Shown here: one piece after another, positions 21,096 through 25,803 of the stretch
Numbering within the stretch: position 1 is the stretch's first letter
Layout of the letters: each line of letters opens with the position of its first letter
From: Halogeometricum rufum
Lineage (GTDB): Archaea > Halobacteriota > Halobacteria > Halobacteriales > Haloferacaceae
Assembly (NCBI RefSeq): GCF_900112175.1
Contig: NZ_FOYT01000001.1
Location: forward strand, 1,240,001-1,304,000
DNA: 64,000 nucleotides
Direction: 5' to 3'
Notes under the pieces: generated by a model
Seen by the model: only the letters and a program-made list of their open reading frames with translations
The model's database searches: none
Told to the model about the DNA's origin: nothing
Position numbers and translations under genes: made by a program

Positions 21096-21344
21096 TCAGG
21101 AGTCCCGGTTCGCTCTCGTTTCTGACCGCCGCCGTTCCTCGCGGAGGCGTTCGTCCCACTCGTCGAACAGGCCGTAGTCCCGCATCGTCGTCATCCCGGC
21201 GAGTGCCGCGCGGAGTTTGATGCCGACGAGCGGGATGTCGGCCACGCTGACGACGATGTCGGCGTCGAGGACGGCACCCTCTTCGAGGAGGACGTCCACG
21301 AGGTCGACGACCGCGTCGTCGTCCGTTGGCGGGTCAGGCTCCAT
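21096..21344 (-). CDS. gvpM: Gas vesicle protein GvpM
   Basis: An 82-residue relative of the major gas vesicle protein GvpA. The core AVVDLVDVLLEEGAVLDADI.. (residues 11-30) and VGIKLRAALAGMTTM match GvpA/J/M, but the helix after the core is charged (WDERLREERRRSE). GvpM and GvpJ are minor, assembly-initiating components in halobacteria. It is the last gene of the minus-strand operon and overlaps gvpL by 11 bp. M rather than J is assigned from its short length and its position after gvpL, as in other haloarchaeal clusters. Confidence 0.9.
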   Translation of the reverse strand: MEPDPPTDDDAVVDLVDVLLEEGAVLDADIVVSVADIPLVGIKLRAALAGMTTMRDYGLFDEWDERLREERRRSETRANRDS

Positions 21345-22254
21345 CGTGGGAGTCCGGAGTCGTCGCGTGAGACGGTTCGTCGGACTCGTCGTCCCCGGTC
21401 GGGGCGCACGCGTCCGGGGCGAACGTGTACGGCGGCCACGGACCCGTGTACCGGACGGACGCGCCGTCCTCGTCGGCTATCGTGTCGAGGAAGTCGCCGA
21501 CGGCGTCGCGTTCGTCCTCGTCCGCGAGGACGGCGAAGCGCGCCGTCGGGGCCGACGACGACTCGGTCAGCGGCGTCTGCGGCGCGTCGCCGAGTTCCTC
21601 CGCCTGGTCGGTCGTCCGTTCGAGTTCCGCGGCGAGTTCGGCCGTTCGCCGTCGCCGGCGCTCCGCGGCGAGTTTCGACACCCGGCGCTCGTACTGTTTC
21701 TCGAGGAGGAACGCGGTGCCGTCGCTGGCGTCGGACAGCCGTTCGTTCAGGTCGGCGAGTTCCTCGTCCTCGTCGGCGAGTGCCTCCGCGAGGGCGTCGC
21801 GGTCCCACTCGACTTCGACGCGGTACTCCCACCGGCCGGACAGGTCGGCGAGCGCTTCGGTGAGAGCGTCCGCGTTCGCCGAGAGCCACGTCCGAATCGT
21901 CTCGTCGTCGCCGCGGACGACGGTGTCGAACCGGAACGGCACGGGCGTTCCGAACGCCTCACCGGCCGCTTCGACGGCCGCCTGATGGTCGTACAGCCAC
22001 TCGCGCACCTCTCCGGGCGCGTCGGACTCGTACGGTTCGGCTCGGTCGTGGACGACGGCGGAGAGCGACTCGACCGAGACGACGGAGAGGTCGGCACCGG
22101 CCACGCCGTCGGCGTCGAAGGCCGCCGCCGCGTCGTCGTCGCGGGGGACGACGCAGTAGACGTAGCGACCGGTGTCGTCGCCGCTGATGGTCTCGTCGTC
22201 GGTGATGGTGTCGTCGCCGTCGTCTGTCCGCCGGCGCTCTCCGGCGTCGTTCAT
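21334..22254 (-). CDS. gvpL: Gas vesicle protein GvpL (GvpF/L family)
   Basis: A 306-residue GvpF/GvpL-family protein. Recognisable blocks are GRYVYCVVP near residue 29, [33 protein letters not shown], and the C-terminal [13 protein letters not shown], which matches the TGPWAPYNF ending of GvpF in the same cluster. A central coiled-coil-like Arg/Glu region (175-215) and acidic termini are halophilic features. GvpL is an essential accessory protein that contacts several other Gvp proteins in halobacteria. It overlaps gvpK by 4 bp and gvpM by 11 bp, implying translational coupling. Confidence 0.92.
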
Positions 22255-22580
22255 CGCTGCTCACCTCGCTCGTCCACGGCCGTCTCTCCCCGTTCGTCCC
22301 GCTCGACCTGCCGAATCGCGTCGGTGACGAGCGAATCGAGGTCGCCGCGGAGTTGGTCCACCTGCTCGTCCACCTCTTGGTCCTCTTTCAGACGTTCCAG
22401 GTCCGCCTCGAGGGCGGCGAGGTGGCTCCCGAGCCGTTCGACCTCCTCGTCGGAGAGTCGCCCGGACTCCATCCGCCTGACGGCCTCGCGTTCGAGCGCG
22501 TCGACCAGTATCTCGACGACGGCGACGACGACGGCGGTGAGACCGTTCGCGCCGCTCTCGTCCACCTCGACGGTCGTCAT
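22251..22580 (-). CDS. gvpK: Gas vesicle protein GvpK
   Basis: A 109-residue GvpK-family protein: [28 protein letters not shown] (residues 13-40) is the conserved helix, followed by [17 protein letters not shown]. It is essential for gas vesicle formation in halobacteria and cytosolic; its exact role is unknown. The gene overlaps gvpJ and gvpL by 4 bp on each side. The acidic C-terminal extension is typical of haloarchaeal versions. Confidence 0.93.
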
Positions 22581-23074
22581 CCGTCTCCCTCCTCGTCCTG
22601 CGCCCGTGGCGTCGATTTCTCGCTCGATTGGGCCGACTCGGACTCGTCCCCAGAGGACTCGGCTGCGTCGTCGTCCTTCGACGCGTCACCGTCCTCCGAG
22701 GCGTCGTCGTTCCCGCCGGTCGTCCCGTCGCTCTCGCCGGGTGCTTCCTCGCTCCCGTCGGACTCTTCGTCGACTTCGGAGTAGTCGCCGGTGGGCGACA
22801 GTTCCGGGTTCGCCGCCGGCGTCACCTGCCGGTTCCGACGGCGTTCGCTCGCCGCCTCGACGGCCTCCATGTCGGTGCCGGACGGGAACTCCAGCCCGTA
22901 CTGGGACGCCGTCTCGAACGACGCGATGGCCGCCCGGAGCTTGATGCCCAGCAACTCCGTCTCGCCGACGGAGACGACGATGTCGGCGTTGATGACGACC
23001 CCCTTGTCGAGGAGCAGTTCGACCACGTCGGCCAGGCTGTCGGAGTCCCGCCCCGGTTGGACCGGGTCAGGCAT
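22577..23074 (-). CDS. gvpJ: Gas vesicle protein GvpJ with long acidic tail
   Basis: A 165-residue GvpA/J/M-family protein. The conserved core spans about residues 12-62 ([20 protein letters not shown].. and [21 protein letters not shown]). From about residue 85 onward it is a low-complexity tail of Asp, Glu and Ser with almost no hydrophobics; halobacterial GvpJ is nearer 100-115 residues. The ATG at 23074 overlaps the upstream gene's stop; a GTG six bases earlier is possible. The tail probably adds solubility or a binding surface for partners during nucleation. Confidence 0.9.
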
Positions 23075-23903
23075 CGTCACCCTCGTACTCGTCGAACCGG
23101 CTCCCGTAGACGCGCGTTCGGTTCGGCGCGGAGGAGTACTTCGTCTCCCGTGGGACCGTCGAGTACTTCACGTCGACGGAACTCCGCGTCTCCGTCGAGG
23201 CCAGCGTCGAGGCGGCCGTCGGGTTCCGCGAACTCGGCTGCTCGGCCGATTCGGTGCGCCGTTCGTTCTCCTCGCGCATGCGAGCGAGTTGGTGGTGGAC
23301 TTCGATCAGTCCCCGTCGGAACTGTTCGACGCTGTCTGCGAGTTGGGACTGAATCGCCGTTTCGTAGGCTTGGTCGGGTACGTTCACGTCGTCGTCACCT
23401 GTATCGAGCGTCTGCTCCGCGCCGAAGTCGACGTCGAAGTCGTCGTCCTCCTCGTCGTCGTCGGTCAGGTCCGAGACGAGGCCGTCGTCGTCTCCGTCCC
23501 CGTCGTCGTCGCCGACGTCGTCCACCGCGTCTTCGAGTTCGCGCTTGTTGCGCCACGCGTCGCGAACGTCGACGGACCCCCAGAGTTCGGCGAGGTCGAC
23601 GACGGCGAGGAGTTTCCGGAGTCGAATCGCCTCGTCGGGATCGCCGTTTACGACCGCTTCGGGGAGGTTCTCCTCGACGACGAGTTCGTCCAACTCGTCT
23701 TCGTCTATCGCCGCGGGGAGTTCCGAGAGGTCCATCGTCTCCAGCAGTTCTATCGCCTCCTCGGCCACGGTCTGGATGTCGGCTATCAGTTCCTCCAGGT
23801 CGGTGTCCGGGTCGTCCCCGGCGAGGTAGTCGAGGGCGTCCTCGCTCGCCCGGAGCGAATCCACGACCAGCGCCGAGACGGCGTCGTCGGAGTCGTCGCT
23901 CAT
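23067..23903 (-). CDS. Gas-vesicle-cluster protein of unknown family, 278 aa
   Basis: A 278-residue protein between gvpG and gvpJ, where haloarchaea normally carry gvpH and gvpI. It does not look like the Hsp20-type GvpH. Residues 1-127 are acidic and helical, with repeated hydrophobic-acidic blocks (LAGDDPDTDLEELIADI; MDLSELPAAIDEDELDEL; VVDLAELWGSVDV). Residues 129-160 are nearly all Asp/Glu/Gly. Residues 178-215 form a helix (LADSVEQFRRGLIEVHHQL), and the end is a Ser/Thr/Arg/Tyr tail (VPRETKYSSAPNRTRVYGSRF). It overlaps both neighbours by 4-8 bp, so it is part of the operon. It may be a fusion or replacement of gvpH/gvpI; I do not assign a letter. Confidence 0.75.
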   Translation of the reverse strand: MSDDSDDAVSALVVDSLRASEDALDYLAGDDPDTDLEELIADIQTVAEEAIELLETMDLSELPAAIDEDELDELVVEENLPEAVVNGDPDEAIRLRKLLAVVDLAELWGSVDVRDAWRNKRELEDAVDDVGDDDGDGDDDGLVSDLTDDDEEDDDFDVDFGAEQTLDTGDDDVNVPDQAYETAIQSQLADSVEQFRRGLIEVHHQLARMREENERRTESAEQPSSRNPTAASTLASTETRSSVDVKYSTVPRETKYSSAPNRTRVYGSRFDEYEGDDA

Positions 23904-24151
23904 CGCTGCACGACCACCTTGTCGCTGAGGCGTTCGCGGGCGCGTTCGGCCGCCTCCAGTTCGGCTTCGAGTTCGGCCCGCCGACGTTCGTACTCCTCGT
24001 CGGACAGTTCGCCCAGTTCGTACAGCAGTTGGTTCTCCTTGATGTCGCTCCGGACGGATTCGGGGTCGTACATCTCTTGGACGGCCAGCGAGTGCAGGAC
24101 GTCCACGACGTTTCGGAACGGCCAGAGGAAGATATCGTCGAGGAGGAACAT
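23900..24151 (-). CDS. gvpG: Gas vesicle protein GvpG
   Basis: An 83-residue GvpG-family protein: FLLDDIFLWPFRNVVDVLHSL (residues 2-22, quoted in parts FLLDDIFLWPF and VVDVLHSLA) is the family signature. An amphipathic coiled-coil helix follows (LSDEEYERRRAELEAELEAA). GvpG is an essential minor assembly protein. The start at 24151 has an upstream AGGAGG-like sequence inside the end of gvpF, and the gvpF stop lies 2 bp before it. It overlaps the following unknown gene by 4 bp. Confidence 0.92.
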   Translation of the reverse strand: MFLLDDIFLWPFRNVVDVLHSLAVQEMYDPESVRSDIKENQLLYELGELSDEEYERRRAELEAELEAAERARERLSDKVVVQR

Positions 24152-24153
24152 CG

Positions 24154-24777
24154 TCACTGGGCCTCTATCTCGATGTCGACGAAGTTGTACGGCGCCCACG
24201 GACCCGTGTAGTCGACCGTCACGTCGGGATACTGGTCTTCGAGGTCGGCGACGGCGTCGCCGAACGCGTCCCGTTCGTCGGCGTCGACGAGGTACGACCG
24301 GTTGAACAGGAGGCGGTCGGAGTAGAGGTCGTTCTCCGCCTCGCTCTCGCTCACCGCGGTCAGTTGGCCGGAGACGTCGTCAGCGACGGTCTCTCGGTCG
24401 AGCGTCGAGTCCTCGTCGACGACGAGTTTCACACCCAGTTCGACGGAGTCGTCGACGTCCATGAGCGCTTTGCGGAAGGCGCGCCGGCCGCCGCGCATGA
24501 CGCTCTTCAGCGTCCGTGCGCTCTTGAACGTCATCCCGAACTGCATCGGGACGACCGCCCGGCCGTCGCCCTCGGTCATCACCGCTCTGAGCACCTCGTC
24601 GTGTGCCCGCGAGTTCTCGTCCGTCTGCTCGACGTCCATGTCGTCGATCGGGGTCACGACCGCCGAGAGCGACCGGTACGTCACGGTCTCGACCGGACTC
24701 TCACCCTCGACGCCCTCCATCTCCAACTCGAAGTCCTCCGCGTCGACGACACCGTACACGTACAACTGAGTGCTCAT
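24154..24777 (-). CDS. gvpF: Gas vesicle protein GvpF
   Basis: A 207-residue GvpF/L-family protein, first gene of the minus-strand operon. It opens MSTQLYVYGVV and has the family blocks HDEVLRAVMTEGDGRAVVPMQFG, here at about residues 58-80, and a C-terminal TGPWAPYNFVDI. GvpF binds GvpA monomers in halobacteria and probably keeps them from aggregating until assembly. The ATG at 24777 is chosen over an upstream in-frame ATG at 24837, because the longer form would cover the divergent promoter region. Confidence 0.93.
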   Translation of the reverse strand: MSTQLYVYGVVDAEDFELEMEGVEGESPVETVTYRSLSAVVTPIDDMDVEQTDENSRAHDEVLRAVMTEGDGRAVVPMQFGMTFKSARTLKSVMRGGRRAFRKALMDVDDSVELGVKLVVDEDSTLDRETVADDVSGQLTAVSESEAENDLYSDRLLFNRSYLVDADERDAFGDAVADLEDQYPDVTVDYTGPWAPYNFVDIEIEAQ

Positions 24778-24926
24778 AATGAGGGTTGACGGACGATTCG
24801 ACCGAGATAATTGTATAGCTTGTGGCTCTTCGAACAAACTTCCGAACGTATCGAATCGACTGAAATTAATTTTTTATTTCTCGATGGCCGAATGATTAAA
24901 TAACGTCACCCAACGACTCGGTTACG
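24778..24926. promoter_or_regulatory. Divergent gas vesicle promoter region
   Basis: This 149-bp A/T-rich gap lies between gvpF (minus) and gvpA (plus). Toward gvpA, GATTAAATAA at about 24891-24900 is a good TATA box 27-36 nt before the ATG, predicting a nearly leaderless transcript. Toward gvpF, CTATACAATTATC read on the minus strand (about 24809-24821) is the best TATA. I see no clear match to the TGAAACGG-type GvpE activator element, and no gvpE or gvpD gene is in the window. Confidence 0.55.
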
Positions 24927-25205
24927 ATGCCAGCAGATAGTCCGGATGGCTCTAGTTTGGCGGACGTACTGGACAGAATCCTCGACAAGGGTATCGTCAT
25001 CGACATTTGGGCGCGCGTGTCGGTGGTCGGTATCGAGATACTGACCGTCGAGGCACGAATCGTGGCCGCCTCTGTCGACACCTTCCTGACCTACGCGTCA
25101 GAGATGGCGAAGATAGAGAAGGCCAGTCAGGGGGACCTCGAAGATCTCAAGGAGATCGAGATCGGGACCGCGAACCCCCGCCTGACCGAGCAGAACCCCT
25201 CGTAA
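24927..25205 (+). CDS. gvpA: Major gas vesicle structural protein GvpA
   Basis: A 92-residue GvpA, the hydrophobic protein that forms the ribbed shell of the gas vesicle. The highly conserved core is intact: [39 protein letters not shown] and [12 protein letters not shown]. The C-terminal tail (about residues 68-92) is polar and differs from the Halobacterium form, where the tail is Ala/Glu/Pro-rich. It lies 13 bp before gvpO on the same strand. No gvpC follows, so the shell probably lacks the usual outer strengthening protein unless gvpC is elsewhere. Confidence 0.97.
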
Positions 25206-25218
25206 CTGAGGTCACACC

Positions 25219-25803
25219 GTGTCCGATCAGTGTAGGGCCGTCACGGACGACGGCGAGCGATGTTCGCGGCCGGCCGAGGAGGACGGCTTCTGTCACCAGC
25301 ACGGTCCCGAAGACGAGACGGTGGACGAAGCAGAGGCCGACGCCGACGCCGAGGCCGAGTCGACTGCAGACGAGGAAGACGAATCGGAGGGCACCACGAT
25401 GGACGAGACCGACGATACGCAAACCGACGGCGACGACGAGCAGCGAGAACGGGACGAAGACGACCAGTCAGCGGAGGCGGAGGAGCGACCGGCGGACGCG
25501 GACGCCCGAGAGAGCGAGTCGGACGACGACGGCGACGACAAAGCAGACATCGTGGCCGTCCGCAACACGGTACAGCAGGACGTCCCCGCCCTCATCGACC
25601 GCGAACTGGACGGCGTCACGAGCGTCGTCCGGGACGAGGACGGCTGGATGGCGACGGTCGAGATGGTCGAGCGACACTCCGTCCCCGACACGCAGGACAT
25701 CCTCGGCCACTACGAGGTGTCGCTGAACGGGGCCGCCGACATCGACGGCTACCGGCGCATCGAGACGTATCGGCGCGCCGAGGGCCGGCCGTACGAGGGG
25801 TAA
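25219..25803 (+). CDS. gvpO: GvpO with N-terminal zinc-knuckle-like domain
   Basis: A 194-residue protein in three parts. Residues 5-28 hold Cys5, Cys15, Cys25 and His28 (CRAVTDDGERCSRP, then GFCHQH), the pattern of a small Cys3His zinc motif. Residues 29-115 are an acidic linker. Residues 116-194 are the GvpO domain (VPALIDRELDGVTSVV, DGWMATVEMVERHSVPDT, YEVSLNGAADIDGYRRIETY). GvpO is essential for gas vesicle formation in halobacteria. The start is GTG; the gene follows gvpA by 13 bp. The N-terminal zinc-like domain is not part of the usual GvpO. Confidence 0.9.
   Translation: MSDQCRAVTDDGERCSRPAEEDGFCHQHGPEDETVDEAEADADAEAESTADEEDESEGTTMDETDDTQTDGDDEQRERDEDDQSAEAEERPADADARESESDDDGDDKADIVAVRNTVQQDVPALIDRELDGVTSVVRDEDGWMATVEMVERHSVPDTQDILGHYEVSLNGAADIDGYRRIETYRRAEGRPYEG

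Follow-up and report, generated by a model that had tools for sequence, protein, structure and literature searches.

The stretch of DNA analysed here (the window, 64,000 nucleotides from Halogeometricum rufum) carries a nine-gene gas vesicle cluster of the form gvpAO / gvpFG-I-JKLM. On the minus strand the genes run, 5' to 3', gvpF, gvpG, gvpI, gvpJ, gvpK, gvpL and gvpM, and gvpA and gvpO are divergent, on the plus strand. The cluster therefore consists of eight genes, A, F, G, J, K, L, M and O, plus gvpI, and all but gvpI were matched by Pfam or NCBIfam.

21096–21344, minus strand: gvpM (NF046091)
21334–22254, minus strand: gvpL (PF06386, NF045778)
22251–22580, minus strand: gvpK (PF05121)
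22577–23080, minus strand: gvpJ, ATG at 23074, overlapping the gvpI stop (PF00741, NF046090)
23067–23903, minus strand: almost certainly gvpI, long acidic form, 278 residues, pI 4.1 (open reading frame, overlaps, GvpI-only profile E=2.9e-14)
23900–24199, minus strand: gvpG, likely start ATG at 24151, stop overlapping the gvpI start (PF05120, NF045779)
24154–24837, minus strand: gvpF (PF06386)
24927–25205, plus strand: gvpA (NF046092)
25219–25803, plus strand: gvpO with an HGGxSTG/DUF5763 N-terminus (PF05800, NF045806)

GvpO, with its HGGxSTG/DUF5763 domain, is of the halophile type. In searches of the H. rufum genome itself, GvpC (PF05465) was undetected, no GvpN scored above the curated cut-off and no strong GvpD match was found.

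The gene without a family match, 278 codons on the minus strand at 23067–23903, had been described in an earlier note as an unrecognised but real member of the operon. Its ATG shares the bases ATGA with the gvpG stop, its own stop falls within the gvpJ start (ATGCCTGA), and the 4-base overlap with gvpG is present in all five Halogeometricum clusters. The same operon slot holds a long GvpI in many genera, and the whole-length dN/dS is 0.30–0.40 in three pairs of close relatives. Slot conservation across genera and this selection together argue that the gene is not a chance open reading frame, and its operon membership stands.

Several comparisons identify the product as GvpI. A search profile made from short GvpI proteins alone finds the H. 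rufum protein in a genome-wide search with the E-value listed above. When a 28-member alignment of the long family was compared with eight short GvpI proteins using hhalign, the probability was 99% (E 9.1e-18, 89 columns, 30% identity), and the C-terminal part alone gave the same probability (E 4.1e-18, 88 columns); as controls for the latter, a reversed profile gave 0.1% and 50 column shuffles at most 0.6%. With tblastn, residues 177–272 match annotated gvpI genes, weakly but with consistent placement. In addition, the gene lies where a GvpI gene is found, between gvpG/gvpH and gvpJ: the order G-(H)-I-J-K-L-M holds in most of the fetched gvp-linked long-GvpI loci, and the slot matches that of the annotated GvpI in pNRC100/pNRC200. 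On this sequence and positional evidence, the protein is almost certainly GvpI, in a long acidic form.

Pfam and NCBIfam give no significant match to the protein, and Halobacterium GvpI itself is not recognised by any model in either collection. Weak matches among Pfam, NCBIfam and PDB sequences (EMP24, StbC, LIM protein, septin) were judged to be due to chance or composition. Searching for related loci with the single protein or a broad alignment retrieved nothing, and a closer alignment retrieved them. GvpH is encoded in the same operon region but has an Hsp20 fold, and it shows no profile match to H. rufum GvpI: PF05455 matched neither the N domain nor the C-terminal part at E<=10, and the hhalign probability was 0.2, which bears out the earlier view that the protein lacks this fold. 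The N domain, compared by hhalign with GvpH, GvpI and GvpC, reached a probability of at most 0.2 (0.2% for GvpC, a family with repeats of 32–40 residues). The GvpI match covers the C-terminal third only, so the whole-length match to GvpH or GvpI that would have told against the note is absent.

The protein can be divided into four segments, all on the minus strand:

23523–23903, minus strand: residues 1–127, acidic helical N domain with DLSELP/DLAELW blocks, of no known family (Pfam none, hhalign, model)
23373–23522, minus strand: residues 128–177, acidic, length-variable, probably disordered linker (composition, dN/dS, pLDDT)
23238–23372, minus strand: residues 178–222, long helix, not basic here, that corresponds by homology to the basic helix at the N-terminus of short GvpI (hhalign, model, charge)
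23070–23237, minus strand: residues 223–278, GvpI tail (near-invariant columns, dN/dS)

Both blocks seen in the first reading are present, DLSELP at residues 58–63 and DLAELW at residues 103–108. The spacer, which had been called Asp-only, is more varied than that, since 26 of its 50 residues are D or E and the others include G, V, L, S, T and N. Similarly, the supposedly basic tail proved neutral: net charges are −32 for the N domain, −26 for the linker, −3 for the helix and 0 for the tail, which has 8 K/R against 8 D/E. The tail carries the motifs SRNPTAxST (225–233), STVPxxxKYSxAPN (248–261) and RVYGxRF (264–270) in near-invariant columns. An AlphaFold2 model of the whole protein is of low confidence (mean pLDDT 55). 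It predicts one long helix at 177–218, in a block with pLDDT up to 83, and disorder in the linker and tail, with pLDDT below 50 for residues 132–176. In the N domain (mean pLDDT 69) helices are modelled at 3–27, 36–56, 59–65, 68–74, 79–85, 89–110 and 113–130; in a fold search with this model, nothing in the PDB matched at E<=0.001, the best E being 2.2. In the three close species pairs, dN/dS is 0.03–0.14 for the C module, 0.23–0.56 for the N domain and 0.44–0.82 for the linker. The C-terminal 90–100 residues or so, a long helix followed by a predicted disordered tail, are shown by sequence to be the GvpI module, and this module is under strong purifying selection.

Among the closest known systems are the GvpI proteins of the p-vac and c-vac clusters of Halobacterium salinarum and of related vac clusters, which occupy the corresponding slot, between gvpH and gvpJ. 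These Halobacterium-type proteins share the homologous helix and tail, with the motifs NPxAxST, STVPxxPKYS and RLYGxRL, but are only about 113–149 residues long, against 278, and have neither N domain nor linker. They also occur together with GvpC and usually GvpD/E, whereas the H. rufum genome has no detectable GvpC, GvpD or GvpN. Long GvpI as such was already known, because distant homologues of GvpI, extended at the N-terminus by more than 200 residues, were reported in 2012 from Natrialba magadii and Haloterrigena turkmenica, whose clusters are very alike (PMC3403918). The proteins in question, Nmag_0338 and Htur_2370, resemble that of H. rufum both in this extension and in belonging to clusters without gvpC, gvpD and gvpE, the absence being reported explicitly for N. 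magadii (PMC3403918). They differ in that both come from Natrialbaceae and that N. magadii is listed with gvpH and gvpN (PMC9501494 Table 1), neither of which is in the H. rufum operon. The same table lists gvpC for N. magadii and others; PMC3403918 and PMC4390858 report its absence.

Long GvpI proteins from many genera have the same two acidic parts, the linker and the helical N domain. We sampled 243 genomes of the order, 101 of them with gvpK; long or short status was read from match tables, and gene order was examined for the fetched loci. All 101 gvpK-bearing genomes have a GvpI-family match, which is of the long form in 93 and of the short basic form, called by a short-profile match at E<1e-40, in 8 (G005, G037, G053, G109, G192, G194, G205 and G208). 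The pI is 9.7–11.9 for short GvpI, against 4.1–5.2 for the fetched long forms and 4.1 for nearly all gvp-cluster members among them. The earlier note had expected GvpI to be small and basic, unlike the 278-residue, acidic H. rufum protein. That expectation is right for a minority of haloarchaea but not for the family, since most gvpK-positive genomes have the long form; small and basic (pI about 10.8, K/R-rich N-terminus) describes the Halobacterium form.

GvpI-like proteins are also encoded outside gvp clusters. Full-length paralogues, with both N domain and GvpI tail, were seen at thirteen such loci (L036, L047, L048, L049, L050, L074 and L121–L127), and in a C-module tree, which is unrooted and built on few columns, they fall at several places among the long forms, with the short forms in one group. 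Six further loci (L113–L118) belong to one family of the order (f7) and share a conserved operon encoding a PQQ-type beta-propeller protein, three open reading frames of no assigned family, and the GvpI N domain joined to a tail of repeated STMP motifs. At Halocatena-type loci (L032, L092 and L096) the long gvpI lies downstream of gvpO, not between gvpG/H and gvpJ; in L032 the usual gvpI slot holds a 237-residue open reading frame with partial similarity to H. rufum GvpI. In Halocatena salina (L037:4833-5773), two small open reading frames of no known family lie between gvpH and gvpI, and no relation was found between a small Halocatena gvp-cluster open reading frame and the Natrialbaceae paralogue operon.

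What long GvpI might do can be approached from the short form. Short GvpI is non-essential, and its absence leads to extremely long cylindrical vesicles (PMC7688916; PMC9501494); PMC4390858 likewise deals with the function of short GvpI. It binds GvpH strongly, and also GvpL and GvpF, and it induces oligomers of GvpJ, GvpK and GvpM, and the positive charge of short GvpI has been put forward as the explanation (PMC7688916; PMC9501494). By analogy, the conserved tail of the long form may be a docking element for the accessory complex (GvpH, GvpL and GvpF; GvpJ/K/M), and the docked protein may help to restrain or end the elongation of vesicles. In clusters that lack GvpC, the N domain and linker would then provide an acidic spacer or a second binding surface. 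Because long GvpI is acidic, the positive charge invoked for Halobacterium GvpI cannot be the basis of such docking; and since the two forms share only the helix and tail, and the long one is not basic, the tail would carry the specificity if both do the same job. No experiments on any long GvpI were found in the open-licence literature. Taking identity and docking or length-limiting function together, we put the probability of this reading at roughly 60%.

One could also speculate that clusters of the long type make no buoyant vesicles, being silent, conditional or dedicated to another GvpA-based structure, with long GvpI adapted to that. Several species whose vac regions lack gvpC and gvpDE have been reported to be without visible gas vesicles (PMC4390858). 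These Vac-minus reports put in doubt whether the H. rufum cluster produces vesicles, and the paralogues outside gvp clusters suggest that the architecture can work elsewhere. However, all eight genes that Hfx. volcanii is reported to need for vesicle formation (A, F, G, J, K, L, M and O; PMC7688916) are present in H. rufum with family matches, and gvpI is under purifying selection, so that we consider this explanation unlikely.

Slightly less probable still is that, where a cluster has no GvpC, some of that protein's shape-setting or shell-reinforcing role has passed to the N domain and acidic linker of long GvpI; losing GvpC and gaining (or keeping) the long form would then be functionally coupled. 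The distribution makes the idea tempting: strong multi-repeat GvpC matches occur in exactly the 8 short-form genomes and in none of the 93 long-form ones (the three other matches are single and weak, and each is either remote from the gvp cluster or in a genome that lacks gvpK), and a split-GFP study detected binding between short GvpI and GvpC (PMC9501494). Strong GvpD matches follow a similar pattern, being found in 7 of the 8 short-form genomes and nowhere else in the sample. In a GvpL tree, moreover, short-type and long-type clusters lie on opposite sides of one branch (support 94/70). Yet the same tree means that the association represents one evolutionary split and thus, statistically, a single event, and the N domain has no sequence similarity to GvpC. 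There is also a second gvp cluster in one genome (L148, G169:C1:2317500-2329500) in which a 116-residue short GvpI occurs with GvpC undetected; the same genome carries a long-type cluster (L149). We regard it as doubtful, to much the same degree, that haloarchaeal gvp clusters fall into two deep lineages, of which one combines GvpC with a small basic GvpI and the other has no GvpC but a long acidic GvpI in which the N domain took over the control of shell shape or strength. If it were true, the laboratory model system would be the exception.

The absence of gvpH from the H. rufum operon raises a separate question. In most long-GvpI operons gvpH lies directly upstream of gvpI, as in Haladaptatus, Halocatena salina, Natronorubrum, Natrinema and others; among the fetched loci, an operon gvpH is missing in Halogeometricum, two Halomarina species and two other genomes. 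H. rufum does have a GvpH-like Hsp20 gene (C1:651523-652245; L151, L167) about 609 kb from the gvp cluster, and such a gene lies outside the gvp cluster in all five Halogeometricum genomes searched. Against the GvpH profile the products score 79–100 bits, compared with 50–59 for generic Hsp20 paralogues (Hsp20 part), and for four of these five genomes the matched region includes the segment corresponding to RIDYDVSI. The possibility that GvpH was lost from the genome was rejected, as the GvpH-like protein outscores the generic paralogues on this profile. Beyond the genus, the closest relative of this protein in the family sample comes from Halegenticoccus (G018, E 4.6e-25), which also has an in-operon gvpH (L065). 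By its sequence, the Halogeometricum protein is a candidate for a GvpH acting in trans. Halogeometricum has lost or moved its operon gvpH independently of the gvpI N domain, which is not a GvpH substitute: it is unrelated to GvpH and co-occurs with gvpH in most long-GvpI operons. The proposal that an N domain fused to a GvpI-like tail replaced GvpH, its oppositely charged ends bridging acidic Gvp proteins, is therefore very improbable: the missing operon gvpH, the tight gvpG/gvpI overlap throughout the genus and the GvpI-like tail (hhalign 99%) fit it, and the extra domain is real, but a GvpH-like gene is kept elsewhere in every Halogeometricum genome searched, and a net neutral tail in a protein of pI 4.1 offers no opposite charges.

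In the reading that we prefer, long GvpI is the ordinary form of a docking and length-limiting protein. We found no earlier statement, in open-licence papers, of the long acidic form as the majority or of the split with GvpC; the breadth of the long form, the charge reversal and that split are what is new here. A positive-charge mechanism for GvpI cannot hold in roughly nine in ten of the sampled gvp-bearing genomes, and the acidic majority points to the conserved tail motifs as the basis of GvpI action. Finally, long GvpI proteins are labelled hypothetical because the databases have no GvpI model, and a model built from the C module would correct these labels.
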